Source of the DNA: Hyphomicrobiales bacterium
GTDB taxonomy: Bacteria; Pseudomonadota; Alphaproteobacteria; Rhizobiales; Aestuariivirgaceae
Direction of reading: 5' to 3'
DNA length: 36,627 bases
Assembly: GCA_026982665.1 (NCBI GenBank)
Contig: JALSGQ010000161.1
Coordinates: 1 to 36,627, forward strand
The notes under the pieces were generated by a model that saw only the letters and a program-made list of their open reading frames with translations, was not told the DNA's origin and did not search any database. Below are positions 2,785-17,173 of this stretch, piece by piece. Every line of letters begins with the position of its first letter. Position 1 is the first letter of the stretch. The position numbers were made by a program, and so were the translations under genes.

Positions 2785-3040
2785 GCCGTCCATCGTCTCC
2801 CATCCCGGCGCCGGCTGGCGCGGCGAGCCGCTGATGCCGCCGCTGGACGAGGCCGAGTGCCTGCCCACCATCGTCGGGGTGCCGGCCACGCCGGCACCTG
2901 CCGGCGCTGCCACCGCCAGCACGTCCGGCTGGGGCTGGGCCTGTCCGCTGGCCGGCGCCGCGGTCTTCCTCGCCCTGCTGCTGGCCCTCGTCATCTGGGG
3001 CATCTGGCACGATGCCCGCCACGGCATGGAGGGTTACTGA
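2777..3040 (+). CDS. Small membrane protein (one predicted TM helix)
   Basis: Hydrophobic WACPLAGAAVFLALLLALVIWGIW; overlaps the upstream ORF. Confidence 0.5.
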   Translation: MREPSIVSHPGAGWRGEPLMPPLDEAECLPTIVGVPATPAPAGAATASTSGWGWACPLAGAAVFLALLLALVIWGIWHDARHGMEGY

Positions 3041-5232
3041 TGCCCCCGCGCTGGCAGACATCAGACTGGCTCACCGCCGCCGAGCTGGCGGAGCTTCAGC
3101 TCGCCGGCCTGCCGGGCACCAGGCGAGGCATGCAGAAGCTCATCCGGCGGGAGGGCTGGCAGAGCAGCGGCAAGGCCCGCCGCCGCCAGGGCCGCGGTGG
3201 TGGCTGGGAATATCACCTCTCCCTGCTGCCGGAAGCCGCGCTGAACGACCTGCTCGCCCGCCGCTTCGCCGCCTGCGCCCGCGAGCAGTCCATCGAGCTG
3301 CCGCCGGCAGACAGTCCGGAGATGGCCCGCGCGCTCGCCCGCGCCCAGCTCGTCATGGCCGCCCAGGCCGACCTCGGCGGTGGCCGCGCCTCCTCCCTGG
3401 AGCGCTTCTGCCACCTTTATAATAATGGTGTCCTGCCGGTCTCTGATGCCATCCGCCAGCTCGTCCCTTCCGTCAGCCCCGCCTCCATACGCCGCTGGCG
3501 CCAGGCCCTGGCCGCTGGCGATCTGCCCCGCCTGGCAAACACTCGCCGCCGCCGCGCCGGGCGCTCGCCCATCGACCGCGCCAACGATGGTGCCCTGGCC
3601 CGCCACGTCGCCGCCCTGCTGCTGGCCCGCCCGCAGCTCTCCGCCGCCCAGATCCGCGATCTCGCCATCGCCGAGTTCGGCGAGACCGTCGATGTAGGCG
3701 GCCATCGCCGCCCCATGCCCACCCTGCGCAGCTTCCAGCGCTGGCTGGAGCGCTACCGCCGCCAGAACGCCGCCGCCATCGCAAGGGTGGCGGATCCTGA
3801 TGGCTACCGCAGCAAATACCGCCACGCCGGCGGCAGCCGCGATGGCTGGGTGAAGGCGGTCAACGACCTCTGGGAGATCGATGCCTCGCCGGCGGACGTC
3901 ATGACCACCGAGGGCCGCGCCTCCGTCTATGTCTGCATCGATGCCCACAGCCGCCGCATGCTGGTGCACGTCAGCCGCACGCCGCGCACCCAGGCCATGC
4001 TGGCGCTGGTCAATCGCGCCATCATCGAGTGGGGTGTCCCCCGCGTCATCCGCTCCGACAACGGCTCCGATTTCACTTCGCATCAGGCCCGCGCCACCTT
4101 CCAGGCCCTCGGCATAGAGCACGATGTCTGCCCGCCCTTCCAGCCGCAGCGCAAGGGCAAGGTGGAGCGCGCCATCCGCACCCTCATGCATTCCTTCATG
4201 CCGCTGCTGCCCGGCTACGTCGGCCACAATGTCGCCGAGCGCAAGCAGCTCGAGGCCCGCAAGGCCTTCGCCCAGCGCCTCGGCCAGCAGCCGGAGAAGC
4301 TGCTGCAGGTGGACATGTCCATGGCCGAGCTGCAGCAGGCCATCGACCGCTGGGTGCAGCATGTGTATGAGCACCGCCCGCACAAGGGGCTGGGCGGGCG
4401 CACGCCGTTTCAGGTGGCCGCCGCCTGCACCGCCCCGCGCCGCCGGGTGGAAACGCCCGAGGCTCTCCACCTGCTGGCCGCGCCGCTGGCCTCCGGCGGC
4501 GGCCTGCGCACCGTCGGGCGCGAGGGCGTGCGGGTGAACGGCCATCTCTACATCACCCGCCATGTCGCCGCCGGCCAGCAGGTGCTGGTGCGGCATGACC
4601 CGGCAGACCTCGGGCGCATCTGGCTGTTCGACCCCACCACGCAGGAGCTGCTGGATGAGGCCATCTGCCCGGAAGTCGCCGGCATCGACCCGGAGGCCGC
4701 CCATGCCGCCGCCCGCCAGGCCCGCGATGCCCTGGTGCGCGACGCCGTCGCCGATGCCAGGGCAGAGGCCCGCCGCCTCGCCCGCAACCCGCGCCAGCTC
4801 ATGGAGCGCACCCTCACCACAGCCGAGCGCCGCCATGCCGCCGTGCTGCCCTTCCCGCCACGAGCCGAGGAGCACACCACCGATGCATTGCAGGCCGCCG
4901 CCCAGGCCACCGGCGAGCGCCCCGCCCCCACACCCGCCAGCCAGGTCTCGCCGGAGATCCGCCAACGGGTGGAGCAGCAGATACTGGCCGAGTGGCAGCA
5001 GCAGCAGGCCGGCAACATCACCCCGCTGCCCCCGCGCGAGGAGGAACCTGACGATGTTGCCCGCTTCAAGCGTGCCCTGCGGCTGGAGCGGGCGCTCGCC
5101 GCCGGCGAGGCGTTGGAGCAGGAAGATGCCGCCTGGCTGCGCGGCTATCAGCGCACCGCGGAATACCGGGCGCAGCAGCGCCTGATGGAGGATTTCCCCC
5201 AGCTCTACGGGCTGGCGGGCAATGGTCAGTAG
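3041..5232 (+). CDS. MuA-type DDE transposase (Mu HTH, rve core, Mu C-terminal domain)
   Basis: N-term WLTAAELAELQLAGLPGTRRGMQKLIRREGWQ; rve core WEIDASPADV...VYVCIDAHSRRMLVHVS...IRSDNGSDFTS...PQRKGKVERAIRTLMHSFMPLLPGYVGHNVAERK. Start at 3041 (MPPRWQTSDW) after the upstream TGA; the ORF track extends further 5'. Confidence 0.93.
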
Positions 5233-5273
5233 CCAATGGTCAGTAGCGTTTCGTGCAACAGGAGCAACCAACC

Positions 5274-6014
5274 ATGCAGGGGAACCATCTCATGATCACC
5301 GTGGCACCGCTTTCCAACGTGCGGGCCTTCGCCGCCATGCTCGAGCAGCTGGTGGATCGCCACCCCAGCCTGCCCGGCATCGGCGTCTTCTACGGCCCTT
5401 CCGGCTTCGGCAAGACGGTGGCCGCCACCCAGGCCATCAACCGCTTCAACGCCGTCTGCATCGAGGTCGGCTTTTCCTGGACATCCCGCGTGCTGGTGGA
5501 TGCCATCCTGCGCGAGCTGGAGCTGGCCCGCACCCCCACCGTGGCCGAGGGCGTGCAGGCCGTCATCCAGGCGCTGGGAGAGCAGCAGCGCCCGCTCATC
5601 ATCGATGAGGCCGACCACCTGCTGCAGAAGCGCACCATAGAGCTGGTGCGCGAGATCCACGACCGCACCGGCGTGCCCATCGCCCTCATCGGCGAGGAGC
5701 AGATGCCAGCCAAGATGACGCGCTGGGAGCGCTTCCACAACCGCGTGCTGGTCTGGGAACCGGCCCAGCGCGCCACCATGGCGGATCTCAAGCTGCTGGC
5801 CGGCATCTATGCCGATGGCATCGACATCGACGAGATGCTGCTCGCCCGCCTGCTGAAGGAATGCGCCGGCGTCGTCCGCCGCCTCTGCGTCAACCTCTCC
5901 CGCATGCGGGAGGAGGCCCTGCGCCGCGGCGCCACCCGCCTCACGCTGGCCGACTGGAGCGATCAGCAATTCTGGACAGGCCAGGCCCAGCCCCTGGCCA
6001 GGAGGGCGTCATGA
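5274..6014 (+). CDS. MuB-type AAA ATPase (transposition target/activator protein)
   Basis: Walker A GVFYGPSGFGKTVAA, Walker B RPLIIDEADHLL; directly downstream of MuA. Alternative start at 5292. Confidence 0.9.
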   Translation: MQGNHLMITVAPLSNVRAFAAMLEQLVDRHPSLPGIGVFYGPSGFGKTVAATQAINRFNAVCIEVGFSWTSRVLVDAILRELELARTPTVAEGVQAVIQALGEQQRPLIIDEADHLLQKRTIELVREIHDRTGVPIALIGEEQMPAKMTRWERFHNRVLVWEPAQRATMADLKLLAGIYADGIDIDEMLLARLLKECAGVVRRLCVNLSRMREEALRRGATRLTLADWSDQQFWTGQAQPLARRAS

Positions 6015-6664
6015 ACAAGGGCATCATCAACAACCGGCAGAACCCCACCGCCCGCGTGCTGCACCGGCCCGTCGGTTCCAGGGCGCGTTCGCGGCTTAAC
6101 CAGCGCCCGCACATGTGGCAGGTCATGTGCAATCTCTCGCGCAGCGGCCCCTTCACCATTGCCGACGTGGTGGGCCGCCTGAACAGCGCCACCGCGGACA
6201 GCGTGCGCAAATACCTCCGCGCCCTGCTGGCTGCCGGCTACGTGCACCGGCAGGACAACCGCGCCGCCGGTGGCAGCGTCCTGTGGCAGGTCGTGCGCCC
6301 GCAGGCCCAGGCCCCGCGCCTGCGCCGGGATGGTGCGGCCAGCAGCGACGCAGGGCGCGGCCAGCAGCACCTGTGGAACGCCATGCGGCGGCTGAAGAGC
6401 TTCGACTATCACGAGCTGGCGGCCCTGGCCTCCACCGAGGAGGTGCGCATCAGCCCCGCCACCGCCCAGCGCTACATCGGCCTGCTGCACCGCGCCGGCT
6501 ACCTGCAGGAGGTGCAGCGCCCCCGCCCGCGCCATCGCGGGCGCTATCGCCTCAAGCTCAATACCGGGCCGCGGGCACCGCGCATCATCCGCACCCTGCA
6601 TGATCCCAACACCGGCGATGTCATCATCGGCGAGGAATGGCTGAAAGGGGAGGACGCGGCATGA
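6011..6664 (+). CDS. Protein with two tandem winged-HTH-like segments
   Basis: PFTIADVVGRLNSATADSVRKYLRALLAAGYVHRQ and DYHELAALASTEEVRISPATAQRYIGLLHRAGYLQEV; ATGA overlap with MuB stop. Confidence 0.6.
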   Translation: MNKGIINNRQNPTARVLHRPVGSRARSRLNQRPHMWQVMCNLSRSGPFTIADVVGRLNSATADSVRKYLRALLAAGYVHRQDNRAAGGSVLWQVVRPQAQAPRLRRDGAASSDAGRGQQHLWNAMRRLKSFDYHELAALASTEEVRISPATAQRYIGLLHRAGYLQEVQRPRPRHRGRYRLKLNTGPRAPRIIRTLHDPNTGDVIIGEEWLKGEDAA

Positions 6665-7044
6665 GCACCACCACCCACAGCGCCATGGAGCGCGCCCGCG
6701 CCGCCTGGGGCGATGCCCTGCCGGACTGGGTGGCGGAACTGGCCGCCGCCTGCGACGCCAGCAGCCAGAGCCGGGTGTCCCGCCGCATCGGCTATTCGGC
6801 CAGCGTCATCAGCCAGGTGCTGTCCCGCACCTACCGCGGCTCGCTCGCCACCGTGGAGCAGAAGGTGCGCGGCGCGCTCATGCAGGAAACCATCGACTGC
6901 CCCGTCATGGGCGAGCTCTCGCGAGACCGCTGCATCGACAACCAGCGCCTCGCCGCCCGCGGCGTCATCGCCACCAGCTCCATGCGCAGCCGGCTCTATC
7001 ACGCCTGCCGCCGCTGCCATCACTCCAGGATGAAAGGGGAATGA
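6661..7044 (+). CDS. Small HTH-like protein of the Mu-like early operon
   Basis: SQSRVSRRIGYSASVISQVLSRTYRGSLATVEQKVRG; ATGA overlap with the previous gene. Confidence 0.6.
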   Translation: MSTTTHSAMERARAAWGDALPDWVAELAAACDASSQSRVSRRIGYSASVISQVLSRTYRGSLATVEQKVRGALMQETIDCPVMGELSRDRCIDNQRLAARGVIATSSMRSRLYHACRRCHHSRMKGE

Positions 7045-7373
7045 CCATGCAGATCAAGCTCTCAACCACCTTGCGTAACATCCGCGACCAGCTCCGCGGC
7101 CACGAGATCGCCGACGGCCAGGTCATCATCCGCGGCGAGGCCCTCTCCAGCCTGGTCGAGACACTCGGCCTCGCCGCCGATGCCGCTGCCGCCCTGGAGC
7201 GGGAGCTGGAACAGGCCCGCACGCAGCCACGGGTGCAGGCCCGCCCGGCGGGCCGCGTGTTGCCGCTGCCGCGCCGGGCGCATCACGCCCGCCGCCATTC
7301 TCCCTGGCGACCAGCGCACCACGCCACGCCCGGGTATGTGATCGACGATGATGACGGAGGAGACGCGGCATGA
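7041..7373 (+). CDS. Hypothetical early-operon protein
   Basis: ATGA-overlapping ORF. Confidence 0.5.
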   Translation: MTMQIKLSTTLRNIRDQLRGHEIADGQVIIRGEALSSLVETLGLAADAAAALERELEQARTQPRVQARPAGRVLPLPRRAHHARRHSPWRPAHHATPGYVIDDDDGGDAA

Positions 7374-7582
7374 AACAGCTCAGCAAGCAACAACTGCGCC
7401 AGCGCCTGCATGAATTGCAACGCGCCCGGCGCAACATCCGCCGCCAGGCGGCGCAGTGGAACCACGAGGCCGACGTGCTGCGCCGTAAGGCCGATGAACT
7501 GCTCGCCACCGATGCCCTGCTGGCCGACGAGGAGCAGGCGCTGGCGCAATACCTGGATGGGAGGGAGCAATGCCACGCGTAA
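7370..7582 (+). CDS. Small coiled-coil-like hypothetical protein
   Basis: MKQLSKQQLRQRLHELQRARRNIRRQAAQWNHEADVLRRKADELLATDALL; ATGA overlap. Confidence 0.55.
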   Translation: MKQLSKQQLRQRLHELQRARRNIRRQAAQWNHEADVLRRKADELLATDALLADEEQALAQYLDGREQCHA

Positions 7583-8085
7583 AGACCATGGCCCGCAATC
7601 TGCCGGTGCCGCAGGACGAGGCCGAGGCAAACGATTCCATCGCCCGCATCGGCAAGATCGACCGCGAGATGAAGCGCCTTGAGGCCGACCGGGATGACGA
7701 GCTCGCCCGCATCAAGGATGCCTACGGCCAGCGCCTCAAGCCGCTGAAGGAGGAGCGCGAGGCCCTCATCGCCGGGCTGGAAACCTGGGCTGCCGGCCAT
7801 CGCCGGCAGCTGCTGAAGCACGGGCGCAAGTCCGTGCGCTTTCCCGCCGGCGAGTTCGGCTGGCGCCTGCGCCCGCCCAGGGTAACCATCAGCAGCAAGG
7901 TGGATGTCATTGCCGAGCTGCAGGCCCGTGGCCTTGAGCGCTTCATCCGCGTCATCCGCCAGGTGAACCGCGAGGCCATCCGCGAGGAGCCGCAGGCCGT
8001 GGCCGATGTGCCCGGCATCAGGGTCGGCTCCGCTGGCGAAACCTTCTGGGTGGAGCCCTTCTATGCCGACAAGCAGGATGCCTGA
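7570..8085 (+). CDS. Mu Gam-like host-nuclease inhibitor / DNA-end-binding protein
   Basis: Long helical segment with AYGQRLKPLKEEREALIAGLETWAAGHRRQLL...KSVRFPAGEFGWRLRPPRVTIS...RGLERFIRVIRQVNREAIREEP, typical Mu Gam. Confidence 0.88.
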   Translation: MPRVKTMARNLPVPQDEAEANDSIARIGKIDREMKRLEADRDDELARIKDAYGQRLKPLKEEREALIAGLETWAAGHRRQLLKHGRKSVRFPAGEFGWRLRPPRVTISSKVDVIAELQARGLERFIRVIRQVNREAIREEPQAVADVPGIRVGSAGETFWVEPFYADKQDA

Positions 8086-8092
8086 ACACCAT

Positions 8093-8121
8093 CTCGAAGG
8101 GGCCTTCACCGCCCCTTCGAG
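8093..8121 (+). terminator. Stable intergenic hairpin between gam and gemA (attenuator or processing site; no clear U-tract)
   Basis: CTCGAAGGGGC (8093-8103), 7-nt loop, GCCCCTTCGAG (8111-8121): perfect 11-bp stem. Confidence 0.5.
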
Positions 8122-8156
8122 CATGCATTTGAGCCTTTTGAACACGGAGCTTTTAC

Positions 8157-8657
8157 ATGCCCGCCGCAGCCCGCAACAAGACCACCCCGCAGCGCCGCAG
8201 CCTGCTGGCCCAGGTGCACATCGCCCGCAAGGACATGGGGCTGGATGATGACACCTACCGCGCCCTGCTGCATCGCATCACCGGCGCACGCTCCGCCGCC
8301 GACATCGAAGACGCCGGCCTGCGCCAGGTATTGCGGGAGATGCGCCGCCTCGGCTGGCGTCCTGCGGCCCGCCAGCGCACGGGCCGCGCGCGCCGCAGGT
8401 GGCGCGCCGCCTCGCCCTATCCGCACGTGCGCAAGGTTTTCGCCGTCTGGGGGGAACTCAAGCGCCGTGGCATCTGGCGCGATCCTCGCCGTTCATCCCT
8501 CGCCGCCTTCGTCCGCCGCATGACCGGCGTCGATGACCCCGACTGGCTTACTGCCTCCCAGGCACGCCTTGTCATCGAGGCCCTGAAAGACATCGGCACT
8601 CGCGCCGGCATCGACTGGCAGCAGGTGGAGGCCCAGGCCCGCCGGCAACGCCGCTGA
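8157..8657 (+). CDS. gemA: GemA (Mu gp16-like) regulatory protein
   Basis: LLAQVHIARKDMGLDDDTYRALLHRITGARSAADI...LRQVLREMRRLGWRP; C-terminal KVFAVWGELKRRG...SSLAAFVRRMTGVDDPDWLTASQARLVIEALKD. Confidence 0.9.
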   Translation: MPAAARNKTTPQRRSLLAQVHIARKDMGLDDDTYRALLHRITGARSAADIEDAGLRQVLREMRRLGWRPAARQRTGRARRRWRAASPYPHVRKVFAVWGELKRRGIWRDPRRSSLAAFVRRMTGVDDPDWLTASQARLVIEALKDIGTRAGIDWQQVEAQARRQRR

Positions 8658-8793
8658 TGGTGCCATCCCCAGCCCGCGCCGCCCTTTGGCGGCCTTTCTT
8701 CGGCCCGGCATTGCAACCGTCGGTAGAGATTGCCCACCCCGACTCCGGCCCTGCACAAAAATCGGCAACCAATTGATATTTCGTGATTATTTT

Positions 8794-8838
8794 GGAAGTG
8801 GGAACTCCCGCATGGAAGTGCGAACAGGTTCCCACTTC
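8794..8838. repeat. Three copies of a GGAAGTGsGAAC motif (two direct, one inverted)
   Basis: GGAAGTGGGAAC 8794-8805, GGAAGTGCGAAC 8814-8825, inverted GTTCCCACTTC 8828-8838. Confidence 0.7.
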
Positions 8839-8921
8839 TGCATCAACCGCCAGGCCGCGGTGCGTCCTGATTTTTTCCGGTATTTCAGCAGGCTGCTGTC
8901 ATTCTGCCGCGCCCCGCCCGC

Positions 8922-9133
8922 TCACGAATGGTGTCGCCCAGGGCCGCTTTCCACGCCAGCAGCACCCCGATCCGATCACGAATTGTGTCGCCCACTAAAA
9001 AAGGGGCCGCGCCCACCAGCGCCGCCTCAATTCCCGACAAAGCCCTAAATCTCCGCGCCTTTTCCCGCCAATTCCCGCCTTTTCCCACCTATTCCCGCCC
9101 CCTCCCTCCAATCACCAATTCTGTCGTCTTACA
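8922..9133. repeat. Three direct copies of a transposase-site-like repeat; candidate end of the Mu-like element
   Basis: TCACGAATGGTGTCGCCCA (8922-8940), TCACGAATTGTGTCGCCCA (8976-8994), TCACCAATTCTGTCGTCTTACA (9112-9133, ending in CA). Confidence 0.6.
9061..9106. repeat. Four 10-bp-phased WTTCCCRCC repeats; G-tract array / G-quadruplex motif on the minus strand
   Basis: TTTCCCGCCA ATTCCCGCCT TTTCCCACCT ATTCCCGCCC then CCTCCC. Confidence 0.7.
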
Positions 9134-9293
9134 CCTCAAGCGCCGCCAACACAAGCCAGCAGTGGCCAATTTCGTCAGGCAATGGCTGGATCATCCTTCC
9201 CCACGCTTGCCCGCGCGCCATTGCAACGCGCGCCCGCATGACCAGGCATAGGCCACGCGACCATGCGTTCATGCCAGCGGAAGGAACGATGCA

Positions 9294-9530: not shown

Positions 9531-10736
9531 TCACCCCTTGCGCCGCAGCTTCGCCTCGGACGGGTCGTAGGCATATTCCGTGATGGTGCCATCCAGCAGA
9601 TGCTGCACGGCCTCGTCGATGGCATCCAGCGGCACCAGGAACCATTCCCGCGGCTTCAGCGCCCGCCCGAAGCGGTCCTGGATCTCGACATCGAGCCGCG
9701 CATTGTCGAAGAAGCGATGCAGCAGGTGCTCCAGCCGGTAGCGGTCGATATTGTATAGCTGCCAGGTGGCAACCACCTCCACGTCGGCCATCAGGAATGT
9801 CGGGTCCTCCGCGGCATTGGCAATACGCTTCTCCACCTCGCCGGAGGTGATGCCGATCTTGTGCAGCGTGTCCCTGATTTCCCTGATCTGCGGATGGTCG
9901 GACTTGCTGCGCAGCACATACAGCGTGCCGCTGAAGACATCGCCATCTTCCTGCTCGCCGGAGAACAGGGGCCCGGGTTTCGGTTCGCTGATACGCCGGC
10001 CCGCCCTGTCCTTGTGCAGCGCGCGCTGCAGGGAGCGCATCAGCAGGTTGCTCTCCGTGCCATTGTCGTAGATGACGCGCAGGCGGCGGTCCGGCCGCTC
10101 GCTCTTCGTGCGGCGCTCCTCTTCTCCCTCCTCGGCCACGTGGATGATCTGGCCGTTGAGGATGAACCAGTCCCCCTTGCGGATGGAGGCATCCTTGCCG
10201 AAGCGGCTGGCCGTGCGCACACCGGTCTCCAGCTCCTGCCTGACCTGCTCGAACAGCGGGCGGAAGCGCTCGAAGTCCTCGCACGGGCGCTGCGATGCCA
10301 CGTCATCGGGCATCTGCGGGCGGGCACCTGAGCGCACATGGGCAAGGCGCGTGAGTTCATCATCGGCGGAGATGCCCAGCTCCGCCAGCAGGGCATCGTC
10401 ATCCAGCTCTTCCGCCGCCAGCGAGGCATCCGCGGCGCCATCCGGCGCATCCAGCAACCGCAATGGATCATGCGGCTCAAGCAAGCTGCACATCTCCTCA
10501 TCGGCGCGCATGCGCTGCAGCCGGCGCGCGTATATCCGCTCGAAGATATCGCACCCCTCGGCATCGACCGGCGCTCGCCCATGCTCCTGCACGAAGCGGA
10601 CGATCTCCTCGAAGCTGGCGATGACGTATTCCTGCTGCGATGTCAGCTCGCGCGCCGGGGCGGGGGCAGTATCCACGCCCAGCTCCGCCAGCAGGGCATC
10701 GTCCTCCTCGGTCAGGCGCTCATTCCACTTCGGCAT
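9531..10736 (-). CDS. GIY-YIG nuclease family protein (T5orf172/MUG113-like C-terminal domain)
   Basis: C-terminal GTLYVLRSKSDHPQIREIRDTLHKIGITSGEVEKRIANAAEDPTF...DRYRLEHLLHRFFDNARL...KPREWFLVPLDAIDEAV. Starts inside the helicase gene (17-nt overlap). Confidence 0.85.
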   Translation of the reverse strand: MPKWNERLTEEDDALLAELGVDTAPAPARELTSQQEYVIASFEEIVRFVQEHGRAPVDAEGCDIFERIYARRLQRMRADEEMCSLLEPHDPLRLLDAPDGAADASLAAEELDDDALLAELGISADDELTRLAHVRSGARPQMPDDVASQRPCEDFERFRPLFEQVRQELETGVRTASRFGKDASIRKGDWFILNGQIIHVAEEGEEERRTKSERPDRRLRVIYDNGTESNLLMRSLQRALHKDRAGRRISEPKPGPLFSGEQEDGDVFSGTLYVLRSKSDHPQIREIRDTLHKIGITSGEVEKRIANAAEDPTFLMADVEVVATWQLYNIDRYRLEHLLHRFFDNARLDVEIQDRFGRALKPREWFLVPLDAIDEAVQHLLDGTITEYAYDPSEAKLRRKG

Positions 10737-12822
10737 TGCGCTGTCGCTCCTGCTCCCGCTTCAGCCGCGCCAGATAGGCCACGCCCTCGGCCATGCGCCG
10801 CTCCCAGGGGTCTGCCGCGTTCATCTCCGGCAGACGGCCATGGCGCTTCTTGAAGTCCAGGGCTCGGCGGGCCAGCAGGCGCGCCTCTTCCAGATCCATG
10901 CTCAGCCGCTTCGCCGTGATGATCTCGTGAATGCGCTTCAGCCGCTCCTCGTTCATTGCCTTGGCGAGGATGGAATAGGCCTCGCTGAACGGATTGACGG
11001 CATCGATGAGATCCACATCCAGCTCCCGCACGTCCATGACGAAACGGCGCACGCCATCGATGAAGGCGGTATTGGCCTCCACCTGCTCGCCGTCATGGGC
11101 GGCAGCCACCTGCTTGGCCTGCTGCACCAGATTGAGGGCGGCAACGGCACGCTGGCGGATGGCCTCGCGGTCTTCCTCGTCCAGGTGCGGATACTTGTCG
11201 CGCACGATCTTGCCCATGCGCTCGATGGTGATCTCCTGCGGCATCAGGTTCTCGTCGAACAGGCCACGCTGCATGGCCTGCCTGTCCTGCAGGAAGGAGG
11301 CGACCACCTCGTGCAGGTCTTCCTGGCAGATCTTGCGCGCCTCCTCGCTCTTCGGTTCGGCCAGCCCCTTCACCTCCACCAGCAGCGTGCCGCGCTCCTC
11401 GTTGAAGCCGACGTTGCAGCCTTCAGGGTCATAACCGCCAGGGCCGTAGTCGAAGCCCTTCTCCGGACCGCTGTCCGGCCTCTTGGGGCGGAACTCGAAG
11501 CGCGGCACCAGCACCTGCTCCATCAGCAGCGAGGCGGCAATGGCCTTCAGGGTGTCGTTCACCGCCTCGGTTACCACATCCTGCGATGCATCCGGTTCGG
11601 CGATGAGGTTGGTGAAGCGCGCGCGCGTCTTGCCCGGCGCATCGCGCGTGGTGCGGCCAATGATCTGCACCACCTCGGTGAGTGATGAGCGATAGCCGAT
11701 GGTCAGGGCATGCTCGCACCAGATCCAGTCGAACCCCTCCTTGGCCATGCCCAGCGCGATGATGATGTCCACGTGGTCGCGATTGTCCTGCTGCGCCGGG
11801 TCGCGCAATGCCCGCACCACGTGGTCGCGCCTGGCCGGGTCATCCTCCACCAGGTCGGCGATCTTCAGCACGCGGCCATCGGGCCTGAGCACGCGATGAA
11901 AGCCGGTGGCCTCGTCCACGCCCAGCCATTCGCCGAGCGCGTTCATGATGGCGTCCACTTCCGCATACTTGTCCTTGGTGCTCTCGCGCGAGCCGACGTG
12001 CGGGATGTGGATGATGGTCTTCTCGTCCGCATCCAGCACCGCCAGCAGCTCGTCCATCCAGCGCCCGGAGTAGAAATAGTAGCCGATGTGCAGCTCCTTC
12101 AGCCAGGTGTAGCCATTGAGCTGCTCGTAGTAGGTGAAGGTTACGGTCTCGAACTTCTCCTCGTCCTCCGGCAGCAGGATGGGAATGGCATCGCCGCGGA
12201 AGTAGGAGCCGGTCATGGCCACCATGTGCACACGGTTGCGGGCAATCAGCTCGGAGAGCTGCCGGCCCAGCACGTTGGCGTCGGTATCGGCGCTGACGTG
12301 GTGAAACTCGTCAATGGCGATGAGGCGCTCATCGAAGACTTCGATGCCGAACTGCTCCACGGCGAAGCGAAAGGTGGCATGGGTGCAGATGAGCACCTCG
12401 TCATCGCTGTTCAGGAACTCGCCCACCGCCTTCACCTTGCTGCCATCGGTGCCCGGCGCCTCGCACAGGTTCCAGCGCGGGTTCACCTCCCAGTCGGCCC
12501 AGAAGCCGTTCTCACTCAGCGGCAGGGAGTTGAAGCTGGCACCGATGGAGCGCTCCGGCACGGCGATGATGGCCTGCTTCAGCCCCTGGTGGCGCAGCTT
12601 GTCCAGGGCGATGAACATCAGCGCCCGGCTCTTGCCCGAGGCCGGCGGCGACTTGATGAGCAGATACTGCTCGCCGCGGCGCTCGTAGGCCCGCGCCTGC
12701 ATGGGCCGCATGCCCAGCTCGTCCACCTGATGCGTGCGCCCGGTGGCGGCGTATTTCACCTTGATGGCGGGGATGTCTGCCCCTGCTTTCACCTTGTCAG
12801 GCATATTGTCGCTGCCGGTCAT
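10720..12822 (-). CDS. SF2 DEAD/DEAH-box helicase family protein
   Basis: Walker A LLIKSPPASGKSRAL, Walker B LIAIDEFHH, motif III-like VAMTGSYF, motif VI-like VVQIIGRTTRDAPGKTRARF. Confidence 0.9.
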   Translation of the reverse strand: MTGSDNMPDKVKAGADIPAIKVKYAATGRTHQVDELGMRPMQARAYERRGEQYLLIKSPPASGKSRALMFIALDKLRHQGLKQAIIAVPERSIGASFNSLPLSENGFWADWEVNPRWNLCEAPGTDGSKVKAVGEFLNSDDEVLICTHATFRFAVEQFGIEVFDERLIAIDEFHHVSADTDANVLGRQLSELIARNRVHMVAMTGSYFRGDAIPILLPEDEEKFETVTFTYYEQLNGYTWLKELHIGYYFYSGRWMDELLAVLDADEKTIIHIPHVGSRESTKDKYAEVDAIMNALGEWLGVDEATGFHRVLRPDGRVLKIADLVEDDPARRDHVVRALRDPAQQDNRDHVDIIIALGMAKEGFDWIWCEHALTIGYRSSLTEVVQIIGRTTRDAPGKTRARFTNLIAEPDASQDVVTEAVNDTLKAIAASLLMEQVLVPRFEFRPKRPDSGPEKGFDYGPGGYDPEGCNVGFNEERGTLLVEVKGLAEPKSEEARKICQEDLHEVVASFLQDRQAMQRGLFDENLMPQEITIERMGKIVRDKYPHLDEEDREAIRQRAVAALNLVQQAKQVAAAHDGEQVEANTAFIDGVRRFVMDVRELDVDLIDAVNPFSEAYSILAKAMNEERLKRIHEIITAKRLSMDLEEARLLARRALDFKKRHGRLPEMNAADPWERRMAEGVAYLARLKREQERQRNAEVE

Positions 12823-13411
12823 CGCTCAGCCAATTCTTCTCGTGCAGCACATCCCAGGCCACCCCCAGGTGATGCTTGGTGAACTGGAACTTGCGCCGGT
12901 TCCAGGCATAGGTCTCGCGCATGACTTCATCGAAGGTCGTTGCGCCATTGCGGGTGGCCACCCAGTGCACGGTGCCCAGCAGCTCCAGCCCGAAGGATGT
13001 CTCGAAGCCCTCGATGAGGTCGATCACCTGTTCGAAATGCCGCTGCGTATGCTGATGCGCCTTGAGGATGGCTTCGGCCTCCTCCCGTGCGCCGGGAACG
13101 AGGCGCAAGGTCTTGTCGGGCGTATCCCCGCCATCTCCGTAACCGGAAATGTAATGCCCCTCCATCTCGTTGAGCACATGGCGAAGATTGCGTGCATAGG
13201 GCCCGTATGGCCCTTTCTGGAAGTGCAGTTTGCTGACGCTCTCTTCCCCCGCCTCGCACAGGAAATACATGAGCTTGTGCAGCTCCAGCAGGGTGATGAA
13301 GGGGTCGAGGAATGCCGCCAGGTAGCGATCCATCAGGCCGATGAGCGCGGCGCGGCCCGGTGTCATGGGGGGAGCCTTCCCCTGAATATCTGCCTCGAAA
13401 TCGGTGGCCAT
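12797..13411 (-). CDS. Stand-alone protein resembling the C-terminal domain of the DarG antitoxin (no macro domain)
   Basis: MTPGRAALIGLMDRYLAAFLDPFITLLELHKLMYFLCEAGEES...FQKGPYGPYARNLRHVLNEMEGHYISGYGDGGDTPDKTLRLVPGA...VIDLIEGFETSFGLELLGTVHWVA...HHLGVAWDVLHEKNWL resembles the DarG region after the macro domain. In-frame TGA just upstream and a good SD show the N-terminus is real. Confidence 0.78.
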   Translation of the reverse strand: MATDFEADIQGKAPPMTPGRAALIGLMDRYLAAFLDPFITLLELHKLMYFLCEAGEESVSKLHFQKGPYGPYARNLRHVLNEMEGHYISGYGDGGDTPDKTLRLVPGAREEAEAILKAHQHTQRHFEQVIDLIEGFETSFGLELLGTVHWVATRNGATTFDEVMRETYAWNRRKFQFTKHHLGVAWDVLHEKNWLSDDRQRQYA

Positions 13412-13615
13412 GATTCCTCACTCCCTGCCATGATCAATAATACCAGTCCGGGCAGGTTTGCACAGTGGGATGATGCACTATGGCATCAAAACCCGGCACG
13501 ACATGCTGGAAAGCACGAATTCCCCACATTTGTTCCATTGCACTTGATTCTTGCGTGAAAATATGATAACTACATCATATGGGCTGGCCACTGCGTAGCG
13601 GGGGCTGGCCCTGTT

Positions 13616-14350
13616 TCATTTGGGCAGCACAACAAGGCCATAACCGTCCACCCTTCCATTCCAGCTCCGGCGAAACTTGCGCTCAATGATATTCCAATCT
13701 TCTCTTGTCTCCTTTCCCAGTACCTTTCGACCAATTGGTGAAACCACGAGGTCTGCCAATTGCAAGCCTGCGATGTTTTCCTTTTTTCCACGCAGGTGGA
13801 GCGCCTGAATCCTGTGCCTTATGTCCTTTGCCTGCATAAATTGCGTACCTTGCACTTTCAGATTGATCCACGCCAACTCCATCTGTCTGTCCAGCAGACC
13901 TCCTCGCTTTTCCGCAATGATCATGCCCCCGTTTTGTACATTTCCAATTTCCATGCAGAAACGCTCCACCAATATGTCCAGGCTCAACATGTAAGGGTCA
14001 AGCGCTGCCACACCATAACGTTGCAAATGTTCTTCTTTCCTGACCACACAAGCAACCACCTTATATTCAAGCTCAGCCATCAATCGGTTCAGATGATCAT
14101 AAAATCGGCTGCGAACGGCAACATCCTTCAAGCACTCGAATCCATTTCTATTGCGGGTTATGTCTGCAGTATGCAGAATCATATCCGCCGTTCCAAAAAT
14201 TTCTTCCTTGAAGGCAGTCAGGGCAGGCTCCATCACCTTTTCGGCATATTCCAAGTCAACGATGATTCCTCCCAGCACGAAAAGTGGATACGCTGGATCA
14301 ATTATCGAAAGATTGTGATCACCTGATTCGTCCAGAAATAAAATCTTCAT
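13616..14350 (-). CDS. DUF3800 domain-containing protein
   Basis: MKILFLDESGDHNL...YPLFVLGGIIVD; later IIAEKRGGLLDRQMELAW and GLQLADLVVSPIGRKVLGK. ATGA overlap with the methyltransferase stop. Confidence 0.85.
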   Translation of the reverse strand: MKILFLDESGDHNLSIIDPAYPLFVLGGIIVDLEYAEKVMEPALTAFKEEIFGTADMILHTADITRNRNGFECLKDVAVRSRFYDHLNRLMAELEYKVVACVVRKEEHLQRYGVAALDPYMLSLDILVERFCMEIGNVQNGGMIIAEKRGGLLDRQMELAWINLKVQGTQFMQAKDIRHRIQALHLRGKKENIAGLQLADLVVSPIGRKVLGKETREDWNIIERKFRRSWNGRVDGYGLVVLPK

Positions 14351-17118
14351 CGCTTGTTATTCTCCCGCATCATTTCCTCATACATCGCCAGCAGCTTTTC
14401 GAGGCGTTCGGAGTCGGAGGTGAAGCGGCGGCCTATGGTGATGCGCTCGATGAGTTCGTCGTTGTGCTCATGGGCGGTGCGCAGCTCCTCCGGCATGGCG
14501 TCCAGCGACTTGTAGAGATCGGCCAGCGAGGCGGGGAAATGCGCGGCGCGGGCCAGCAGGATGCGCTCGGCGGCTGCCGTCAGCGCCTGCTTCTGCGGCG
14601 TCGTCAGCCGCGGCACCGGAAAGGTGTGCCAGCCAAGGGTGTTGGAGTAGGAGAAGTCTGTTTTGAGCCTGCCGCAGACGGTGGCGATCCACACCAAGTG
14701 CAGGCGCGAGGCCAGCAGCGCCAGGTTCCACAAGGGCGCGTCATACAGGGCAAAACACTTGTTTGTGATTCTGGAGAACCTATCGACAATTCCTACAGGC
14801 AGCCAGTAACGATTTTCCGAACTTACTTCTGGCACCACGATGGTATGGTGCCCAATTTCTTCTGGAGAGCGAATTTCTCCGAATTTGTGGGCAATGTCTG
14901 CAATCTTGCGAGTTGCTGCCTTGCGGCTCTCCAGCCGCTTCTGGCGCACCTTCTCCACGCGCTCGGCAATGGCGGGGATGGCCAGGGCAGCGTCCTTGTC
15001 CGCGTCGCGGATCCACAGGCAGTAGCGCACCTCGTTGTTGATGAATTCGCGCGAGCCGTAAATGCGGCGGATGAAGCGGCGCTCCTCCGCCTCGCTCAGC
15101 CCCAGTGCCCGGCGCTCCGCATAGGTCAGCAGCAGGTGGCCACCATCCGTAGGTTGATTGCCCTTGTCCATCGCCGGCAGCCCGTTGATGGGGCGGGGTG
15201 CCTTGTGCACGATGATGTCCGGCCCGGCCACCAGGTAGGCATTGATGTTGTCCACCTCGCGCATCAGCACCTGGTCATCCTCCTGCGTGATGAACAGCCG
15301 GCGGCGGCCCTTCGGCTGGCGCTTCAGCCCGGCGACGATGACGGTAACGCCGGCATTGTGCCGCGCCAGGTTCTTCCACCTGAAGCTGGTGTGGGCGAAG
15401 TGGATGGCCACGCCGCCCTGCAGCACTGCCGGCCACAGGATGCCCACCTGCTGCCCCTGGCAGATGGAGTTGGTGGAGACGAAGGCGCTGGCCGCTTCGC
15501 CGGGCGCGGCGCGCAGGTAGTCCGCCGCTTTCAGGAACCAGCCGCAGACGTAATCCAGCGAGCGCCAGTTCTTAACCCGCCCGTCGAAGAGTTGCTTCAG
15601 GTCTTCCTTCTGCTCCTTCGACTGCCACGTGCTGCCCAGGTAAGGCGGGTTGCCGCAGATGTAGAGCTCGCCGCCGCGCGTCTCGAAGGCGATTTCCGGT
15701 TGCTCGAGCGGCGTGGCGAAGAGGTCGTCATCCTCGCTCTTCACCTGCACCTCGCGGCCCAGCGGCGGGCAGATGCTCAGCCAGTTCAGCCGCAGTGCGT
15801 TGCCGGTGGTGATCCAGTTGCGCCGGTTCAGCGGCAGGAACTCGGCCAGCGCCAGGTCCTTGCCGCGATACTGCACGTTGGCCTGGTATTCGGCGATGAT
15901 GAGCGCCAGCCGCGCCACCTCCGCCGGGAAGGACAGCAGCTCGATGCCGCGAAAGTTGGTGAGGCGGATGCCGGTGGGCCGCTGCGGCTCGCCCAGGCGG
16001 GCGTTGATCTCCGCCTCGATCTCGCGCAGCGCCTTGTAGGCGATCACCAGGAAGTTGCCGGAGCCGCAGGCGGGGTCGAACACACGGATGTTGGCCAGCC
16101 GCCGGCGCAGGTTGAGGAGCTTGCGGCGGTTGTCGCCGGCGGCTTCCAGCTTCTCCTTCAGCTCGTCGAGAAACAGCGGCCCCAGCACCCGCATGATGTT
16201 GGGCACGGAGGTGTAGTGCAGGCCGAAGTCTCCGCGGTGTTCCTCGTCCGTTACCGTCTGGATCATGGAGCCGAAAATGTCCGGGTTGATGGCGCTCCAG
16301 TCCAGCTCGCCGGCCTGCAGCAGGTAGGTGCGCGCGGCGCGGCTGAAGCGCGGCGTTTCCACCGAACCGGCAAACAGCCAGCCGTTGACCAGCGGAAAGG
16401 CATCGGCCCAGCGCGGCAGGCCGGCGGCGCGGCGCTCCTCTGCGGGCAACTGCATGGCGCGGAACAGCGTCTGGATGATCTCGTGGGTATCCGAGCCGTC
16501 CGGCGCGCTCATCTGGCTGACGGTGGCGGTGAACAGGTTGTCGCCGATGAAGATGCCGGTGTCCTCGGCGAAGAAGCAGAAGATGAGCCGGGCGAGGAAA
16601 TGGTTCATCTCGTCGCGGCGCTCGCCCCAGTCCGGATCGTGCTTCAGCAGCTCCACATACAGGCGGGAGAGGCGGGAGACGGCGCGAATGTCGATGGGGT
16701 TGTCGCGCAGGCGGCGCTCGGCGGTGTCATAGCCCGCCAGCGGCAGGAAGAAGGCGAAATGGTCGGGGAAGTCGGCCCAGCCGGAGGTCAGCACATCGCC
16801 GGTGGCGAGGTCTTCGGCCAGCACCTGCTCGCCGTCGGTGGCCAGCAGGAAGCGCGCCTTGTGCCGCGCCGTGGCCTCGCTGGCGCGCAGGCGCCGCATG
16901 GCCTCCTCCACCGCGCCCGGCTCGGCCACCTTGATGTGGATCTGCCTGCGTTGCAGCACGCCGCCGATGTCGGAATGGTTGGTGTTGCCCTTCTTCAGGC
17001 GCTTGATGGTGGTGTCCTTCGCGCCGTGGGCGCGCAGGAAGGCATAGGGAAACTCTTCCGCATCCAGCGGCTGCCGGAACAGCTCCGAGACAGCCTGTTC
17101 TATCTCCACCGGGTTCAT
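14347..17118 (-). CDS. Class I SAM-dependent DNA N6-adenine methyltransferase, MmeI/YeeA-like
   Basis: FPYAFLRAHGAKDTTIKRLKKGNTNHSDIGGVLQRRQIHIKV...DFPDHFAFFLPLAGY; motif I VFDPACGSGNFLVIAYKAL; motif IV YICGNPPYLGS. Start set at 17118 (MNPVEIEQ) after GGAGGGGAG; the ORF track starts at 17151. Confidence 0.9.
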   Translation of the reverse strand: MNPVEIEQAVSELFRQPLDAEEFPYAFLRAHGAKDTTIKRLKKGNTNHSDIGGVLQRRQIHIKVAEPGAVEEAMRRLRASEATARHKARFLLATDGEQVLAEDLATGDVLTSGWADFPDHFAFFLPLAGYDTAERRLRDNPIDIRAVSRLSRLYVELLKHDPDWGERRDEMNHFLARLIFCFFAEDTGIFIGDNLFTATVSQMSAPDGSDTHEIIQTLFRAMQLPAEERRAAGLPRWADAFPLVNGWLFAGSVETPRFSRAARTYLLQAGELDWSAINPDIFGSMIQTVTDEEHRGDFGLHYTSVPNIMRVLGPLFLDELKEKLEAAGDNRRKLLNLRRRLANIRVFDPACGSGNFLVIAYKALREIEAEINARLGEPQRPTGIRLTNFRGIELLSFPAEVARLALIIAEYQANVQYRGKDLALAEFLPLNRRNWITTGNALRLNWLSICPPLGREVQVKSEDDDLFATPLEQPEIAFETRGGELYICGNPPYLGSTWQSKEQKEDLKQLFDGRVKNWRSLDYVCGWFLKAADYLRAAPGEAASAFVSTNSICQGQQVGILWPAVLQGGVAIHFAHTSFRWKNLARHNAGVTVIVAGLKRQPKGRRRLFITQEDDQVLMREVDNINAYLVAGPDIIVHKAPRPINGLPAMDKGNQPTDGGHLLLTYAERRALGLSEAEERRFIRRIYGSREFINNEVRYCLWIRDADKDAALAIPAIAERVEKVRQKRLESRKAATRKIADIAHKFGEIRSPEEIGHHTIVVPEVSSENRYWLPVGIVDRFSRITNKCFALYDAPLWNLALLASRLHLVWIATVCGRLKTDFSYSNTLGWHTFPVPRLTTPQKQALTAAAERILLARAAHFPASLADLYKSLDAMPEELRTAHEHNDELIERITIGRRFTSDSERLEKLLAMYEEMMRENNKR

Positions 17119-17135: not shown

Positions 17136-17173
17136 CCTTGCACGGTGGCAACTATACCCGCCACATGGCAAGG
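17136..17173. promoter_or_regulatory. Imperfect dyad around a TATAGT -10-like box upstream of the methyltransferase operon
   Basis: CCTTGCacgGTGGC-aactataccc-GCCACatgGCAAGG; TATAGT on the minus strand at 17156-17151, 33 nt from the start codon. Confidence 0.45.

Follow-up and report, generated by a model that had tools for sequence, protein, structure and literature searches.

A DnmA-YeeB-YeeC-type restriction operon with an exchangeable cargo slot, a DarTG relic and a DUF3800 gene in a Hyphomicrobiales bacterium

Contig JALSGQ010000161.1 of a Hyphomicrobiales bacterium (assembly GCA_026982665.1), of which the 36,627 nucleotides analysed are called the window here, carries five consecutive minus-strand genes which raise the question of whether they encode a single defence machine. 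Three of them encode a methyltransferase, a helicase and a GIY-YIG nuclease. A DUF3800 gene and a gene for the C-terminal domain (CTD) of the antitoxin DarG lie between the methyltransferase and the helicase. As this interval contains remnants of an older toxin-antitoxin pair along with a foreign gene resembling a nuclease, the set of five is not considered one new machine. The locus is very probably a DnmA-YeeB-YeeC operon with an exchangeable effector slot, in which a DarTG remnant persists and DUF3800 is the present cargo. The apparent five-gene novelty becomes a general pattern in a widespread, little-studied restriction system.

A cargo slot between the methyltransferase and helicase genes

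The following features of the operon were assigned (positions in the window, with the basis of each assignment).

14347..17118, minus strand: MmeI/DnmA(YeeA)-type adenine methyltransferase with target recognition domain (Pfam, PADLOC)
12823..14346, minus strand: cargo slot, from the modification gene to the restriction genes (locus comparison)
13616..14350, minus strand: DUF3800 gene, predicted RNase H-fold nuclease, probable present cargo (Pfam, GC content at third codon positions (GC3), conserved residues)
13434..13478, minus strand: relic, the final 14 darT codons and the stop, VHHPTVQTCPDWYY (tblastn, position-specific scoring matrix (PSSM))
12797..13411, minus strand: darG C-terminal domain without the macro domain, frame open and well conserved (NCBIfam)
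10720..12822, minus strand: YeeB-type superfamily 2 (SF2) helicase/translocase (Pfam DEAD, relatives beside a methyltransferase)
9531..10736, minus strand: YeeC-type GIY-YIG (T5orf172/MUG113) nuclease (Pfam, place behind the helicase)

A sequence-only reading of this DNA had described five minus-strand genes with overlaps of 4, 26 and 17 nt. The coordinates of the open reading frames (ORFs) bear this out for the methyltransferase/DUF3800, DarG-CTD/helicase and helicase/GIY-YIG junctions, respectively, and the five family calls are upheld by profile matches far above chance. The DUF3800/DarG-CTD junction is the sole one without overlap and has a gap of 204 nt. Two features are absent from that reading, namely a DarT C-terminal tail in this gap and the foreign composition of the DUF3800 gene. 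The methyltransferase ORF has an alternative start, a TTG at 17151.

In related loci, the methyltransferase/helicase junction is an exchangeable cargo slot. Relatives of the helicase and the methyltransferase were gathered from genomes, plasmids and viral contigs, and 107 loci with both genes were left after removal of identical helicases (L numbers below denote the collected loci). The close clade, defined by a helicase score >800 bits, comprises 90 loci and the distant clade 17. Slots with >200 nt between methyltransferase and helicase were counted as occupied. By this mechanical count of loci, which are non-independent samples, the slot is occupied in 52 of the 90 close-clade loci versus 3/17 in the distant clade. 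The helicase/GIY-YIG junction, which is never used, provides an internal control, as it exceeds 200 nt in 0/115 loci (maximum 185). A FastTree tree of the 90 close-clade helicases implies at least 26 changes between occupied and empty slots and at least 48 changes of content. Near-identical helicases can be found next to unlike slots: L074 and L075 are empty and L076 carries RhuM, and L015 and L093 differ in their cargos. The methyltransferase stop lies within an ATGA overlap in 31 of the 52 occupied and 22 of the 38 empty loci. Therefore, the next gene, of any kind, tends to share translational coupling. Toxins and nucleases are swapped at a single, precisely placed slot in an otherwise constant operon.

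According to Pfam, the occupants include RhuM, PDDEXK_4, YhcG/DUF1016, Mrr, Fic, Schlafen-AlbA/HATPase and CoiA-like proteins. Those of the toxin-antitoxin kind are a ParE/RelE-type toxin with its antitoxin, BrnT and DarTG, and a helix-turn-helix plus M78 peptidase gene adjoins a HigB-like gene in another pair (the labels BrnT, HigB-like and phospholipase-D-like were assigned by eye). PADLOC names four of the tested families (RhuM-type PDC-S05, DUF1016 PDC-S02, PDDEXK_4 PDC-S26, and PDC-S67) and places the Mrr protein among the type IV enzymes. Remnants of former cargo were detected in other slots as well, i.e., RhuM in L077 (26%) and DUF1016 in L171 (35%), L097 (~9%), L103 and L172.

Several slot families have no Pfam match. 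Three recurrent ones, of ~260 aa (L088 3737-4516, L109, L111, L010), ~290 aa (L099 1814-2695, L100, L110, L173) and ~320 aa (L112 517-1467, L124, L170, L173), matched neither Pfam nor PADLOC. The commonest small slot protein (~137 aa; L093 4079-4489, L070, L098, L016, L121) is also without a Pfam match and looks, from its sequence, like a small nuclease. The slot supplies a list of candidates for defence genes, including several that none of the family libraries tried could match. Among the distant helicases, where it is rarely occupied, the slots of L134 and L133 hold genes of unassigned family, at least two of which probably encode membrane proteins. On several plasmids, a HigA, VapC or PIN, or Fic gene stands directly upstream of the methyltransferase (L093, L098, L101, L104, L090, L095), which suggests that embedding also takes place at a further site, at the operon's 5' end.

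The core trio and its division of labour

By domain family and gene order, the three core genes are a DnmA(YeeA)-YeeB-YeeC restriction-modification (R-M) trio. A restriction locus of the yeeA-yeeB-yeeC type had been proposed from the sequence, and the proposal is borne out by literature precedent and by a gene order (methyltransferase, helicase, GIY-YIG) kept in the 107 loci. The methyltransferase contains all five MmeI domains of Pfam (MmeI_N, hel, Mtase, TRD, C; MmeI_Mtase 1.5e-109), retains NPPY and matches PADLOC REase_MTase_IIG at 4.8e-271; 5hr4, a solved MmeI structure, is its only match in the PDB. The helicase matches Pfam DEAD at 9e-6, which is at Pfam's cut-off. Its relatives, 60-70% identical, adjoin a methyltransferase, and one from Acetobacter carries the annotation YeeB. 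The GIY-YIG protein matches MUG113/T5orf172 (Pfam, 2.7e-16), and its gene always comes directly behind the helicase in relatives. No named PADLOC system matched exactly, and the helicase, GIY-YIG and DUF3800 proteins gave no strong PADLOC match.

In alignment, the N-terminal PD-(D/E)XK motif of the methyltransferase is lost. The trio methyltransferases show 'NIH' or 'QIH' where the E-x-K motif would be, with H at the catalytic E region, and the nuclease region of the close-clade proteins reads like SD-GG-VLQxNNIH. In contrast, L021 and L022, two MmeI relatives of Bacteroidota that stand alone, with no helicase gene beside them within the DNA fetched, read FIDLLWKGxILxEHKS and retain E-x-K-type residues. 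Because E-x-K is lost in the trio and kept in stand-alone relatives, the methyltransferase and the YeeB/YeeC pair are likely to divide the labour between them. The methyltransferase would most likely supply recognition and place N6-methyladenine on a single strand of a non-palindromic site. As the PD-(D/E)XK nuclease of this protein is dead, the cutting of unmarked DNA would be left to the ATP-driven helicase and the GIY-YIG protein. A Type IIL (MmeI) single-protein restriction enzyme was ruled out, since an active nuclease motif is missing from the same polypeptide.

Restriction could also be dead and the locus no more than an orphan methyltransferase plus remnants, a view put forward for DnmA in B. 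subtilis. Indeed, neither a restriction nor a phage phenotype was seen in the deletion mutants described for B. subtilis. The three core genes are nevertheless all open in the window and 60-70% conserved across proteobacteria, and homologues in Vibrio crassostreae alter phage sensitivity, as cited in PMC9973331. This alternative is regarded as unlikely.

The DarTG relic, the DUF3800 gene and their surroundings

The DarG-CTD protein matches only the C-terminal half of NCBIfam DarG (positions 160-338, 2e-49) and the solved structure 7yk3 (5e-22). The start of its ORF corresponds to the linker between macro domain and CTD in a full DarG, with homology from DarG residue ~160. It comes at once after the stop of the short stretch in the 204-nt gap, which matches the DarT C-terminus and where the tblastn alignments of several DarT proteins end exactly. 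This tail scored 27.4 with a PSSM made from 14 DarT tails; dinucleotide-shuffled versions of the gap scored at most 13.8 (0/20,000 reached the score), and the second best among the window's 866 stop-terminated sites scored 0.17. The DarT body and the DarG macro domain are missing, and the DarT-binding C-terminal domain of DarG is present. On these matches, the DarG-CTD gene is a relic of a DarTG module. A complete DarTG system was ruled out, with DarT reduced to 14 codons and the macro domain gone.

In 372 genomes of the class, the other DarG-CTD matches belong to full-length DarG (13/13), and the window copy alone is standalone. One other sampled slot, in Chloroploca (L011, 12832-14228), contains DarTG. 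There, DarT and the DarG macro domain are intact, and the CTD has a partial deletion and a frameshift. The simplest history would be that DarTG was an earlier cargo which the DUF3800 gene has largely overwritten, and the half-erased module would be a snapshot of cargo replacement under way.

The standalone domain might instead be under selection as an orphan antitoxin against the DarT of incoming plasmids or phages. Its frame is intact, 50/54 conserved CTD columns and 23/24 invariant residues are kept, its gene is coupled in translation to the helicase, and DarG is known to disarm DarT by physical sequestration (PMC12255303). No DarT was found in the host genome, so that a host DarT was ruled out as the target. 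Moreover, this is a single example, and the open frame can equally be explained by a recent truncation. It is judged quite improbable that the domain is selected as an orphan antitoxin. The protein is either a recent leftover or a still useful DarT-binding protein.

The DUF3800 gene is AT-rich and foreign by composition. Its GC is 0.471 and its GC3 0.51, compared to a GC of 0.65 and a GC3 of 0.85-0.88 in the core genes. The protein matches Pfam PF12686 (4.3e-14, 53.9 bits vs a cut-off of 21) and keeps D7, E8, D11, H12, E147 and D200, which are invariant across four homologues. DUF3800 was modelled as an RNase H-fold nuclease in earlier work (PMC10910872). No relative was found in the PDB, a single-sequence structure model (AlphaFold) was poor (predicted local distance difference test 38.9), and no non-coding RNA motif linked to the gene was found in Rfam (E up to 1). 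The gene is placed where DarT would be expected to begin, and its ATG lies in the 4-nt ATGA overlap with the methyltransferase stop, which is the usual cargo start. DUF3800 is probably the present cargo, and would act as a second-line effector.

A new toxin-antitoxin pair of a DUF3800 nuclease toxin and a re-used DarG antitoxin domain is very unlikely. Both genes are adjacent in a slot where toxin-antitoxin modules are frequent, and both proteins are well kept, i.e., the conserved columns of the CTD and the active-site residues of DUF3800. Yet the DarT relic lies in the gap between them, no DarG-CTD partner was found beside DUF3800 in the plasmid annotations examined, and no second DUF3800 and DarG-CTD pair was found there or in viral contigs. 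That all five genes form one integrated, undescribed defence system with DUF3800 and DarG-CTD as dedicated parts, for which the common direction and the overlaps at 3/4 junctions speak, is largely refuted and extremely improbable, as the junction is empty or filled with unrelated genes in the 106 other loci, neither protein recurs in the slot apart from the broken DarTG in L011, and one is foreign in composition and the other lies behind a DarT relic. The sequence-only reading, which took both proteins for extra components of one unusual system, does not hold on this point: the neighbourhood comparison it had itself proposed as a refuting test, run over the 107 loci, revealed an exchangeable slot in which the five families do not recur together, and the two proteins are one-off occupants, DarG-CTD being the remains of DarTG.

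In the preferred account, the slot of the DnmA-YeeB-YeeC operon would gain, lose and regain cargo, namely toxins, toxin-antitoxin modules and nucleases. Cargo would mostly be coupled in translation to the methyltransferase via the 4-nt ATGA overlap, as the helicase would be when the slot is empty. The slot in the Hyphomicrobiales genome would formerly have held DarTG, which lost DarT and the macro domain of DarG by deletion. The foreign DUF3800 gene would then have taken the DarT position, leaving DarG-CTD as a residual reading frame. Several points weigh against this account. DUF3800 was found in none of the other sampled slots among the 107 loci, and its role as cargo is therefore deduced from position. 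DarG-CTD may still function because it is well conserved. Cutting, methylation and any phage effect of the trio are predictions from sequence here, and the B. subtilis trio restricted neither plasmid DNA nor phage in the experiments reported (PMC7261158, PMC9973331). A broader proposal can be made tentatively: the slot may be a dedicated, fast-turning site for R-M-coupled second-line effectors, and DUF3800 and the unmatched families could be unrecognised anti-phage effectors, restrained by or expressed with the trio.

As for the surroundings, Mu-like phage early genes, including regulators, lie directly left of the operon on the plus strand (2857-9251).

2857-5232, plus strand: Mu-like transposase
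7570-8085, plus strand: Mu-like Gam-like end protection gene

No phage structural genes were identified left of the operon in the part scanned. Homology with sister genomes is found only from ~19.3 kb (~19309) rightwards in the window, and the left flank of the sister genomes maps to other contigs of the Hyphomicrobiales genome (C99 and C100). Everything left of this boundary behaves like an island, and the operon is therefore placed in one. An IMG/VR contig that is 100% identical to the window (L060) ends exactly at the helicase start. This end is read as the trimming of a predicted provirus and not as biology.

Comparison with known systems

The B. subtilis trio consists of DnmA (YeeA), YeeB and YeeC, and DnmA methylates GACGAG (PMC7261158, PMC9973331). 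In the parts of these papers concerned with the operon, DnmA is counted among MmeI homologues without an endonuclease motif that have helicase and GIY-YIG genes behind them, and the neighbourhood analysis gives YeeB and YeeC as the first and second genes downstream. For the trio, a restriction role resembling Type I was put forward; this role was not found in B. subtilis, and mutants of Vibrio crassostreae lent it support through their phage sensitivity (PMC7261158, PMC9973331). As in B. subtilis and Vibrio crassostreae, the window has an endonuclease-less MmeI-like methyltransferase, an SF2 helicase and a T5orf172/GIY-YIG protein in the same order. Unlike the published loci, it has two extra genes between methyltransferase and helicase, and those parts of the papers report no cargo slot. 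No description of a slot in DnmA-YeeB-YeeC operons was found in the literature, in a search outside which the guilt-by-embedding survey itself fell (Payne et al. 2024 preprint). The slot in these operons is provisionally considered new.

That restriction operons can harbour embedded effectors is already a known principle. The guilt-by-embedding survey is cited as the basis of the PADLOC PDC families (PMC12988326, PMC12255303), and its candidates PDC-S05, PDC-S02, PDC-S26 and PDC-S67 also occupy the DnmA-YeeB-YeeC slot. TgvAB is embedded in a Type I operon (PMC11411939). PrrC is embedded in EcoprrI, and repeated displacement of toxins was described in Type I and III systems (PMC3874165, PMC3506569); as here, an effector gene lies inside an R-M operon and one toxin is repeatedly replaced by another. 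The guard mechanism, in which the R-M complex keeps the toxin latent until restriction fails, was demonstrated for PrrC. DUF3800 shares the position inside an R-M operon, and any guard role for it or the trio would be hypothetical. Finally, DarTG2 lies between hsdS and hsdR within a Type I R-M operon, in the RRDM island of enteropathogenic Escherichia coli (PMC12255303). In both operons, DarTG was placed between the recognition/modification and the restriction genes. In contrast to the Type I hsd operon, in which DarTG is intact and active, a DarT tail and the DarG-CTD are what is left of it here.

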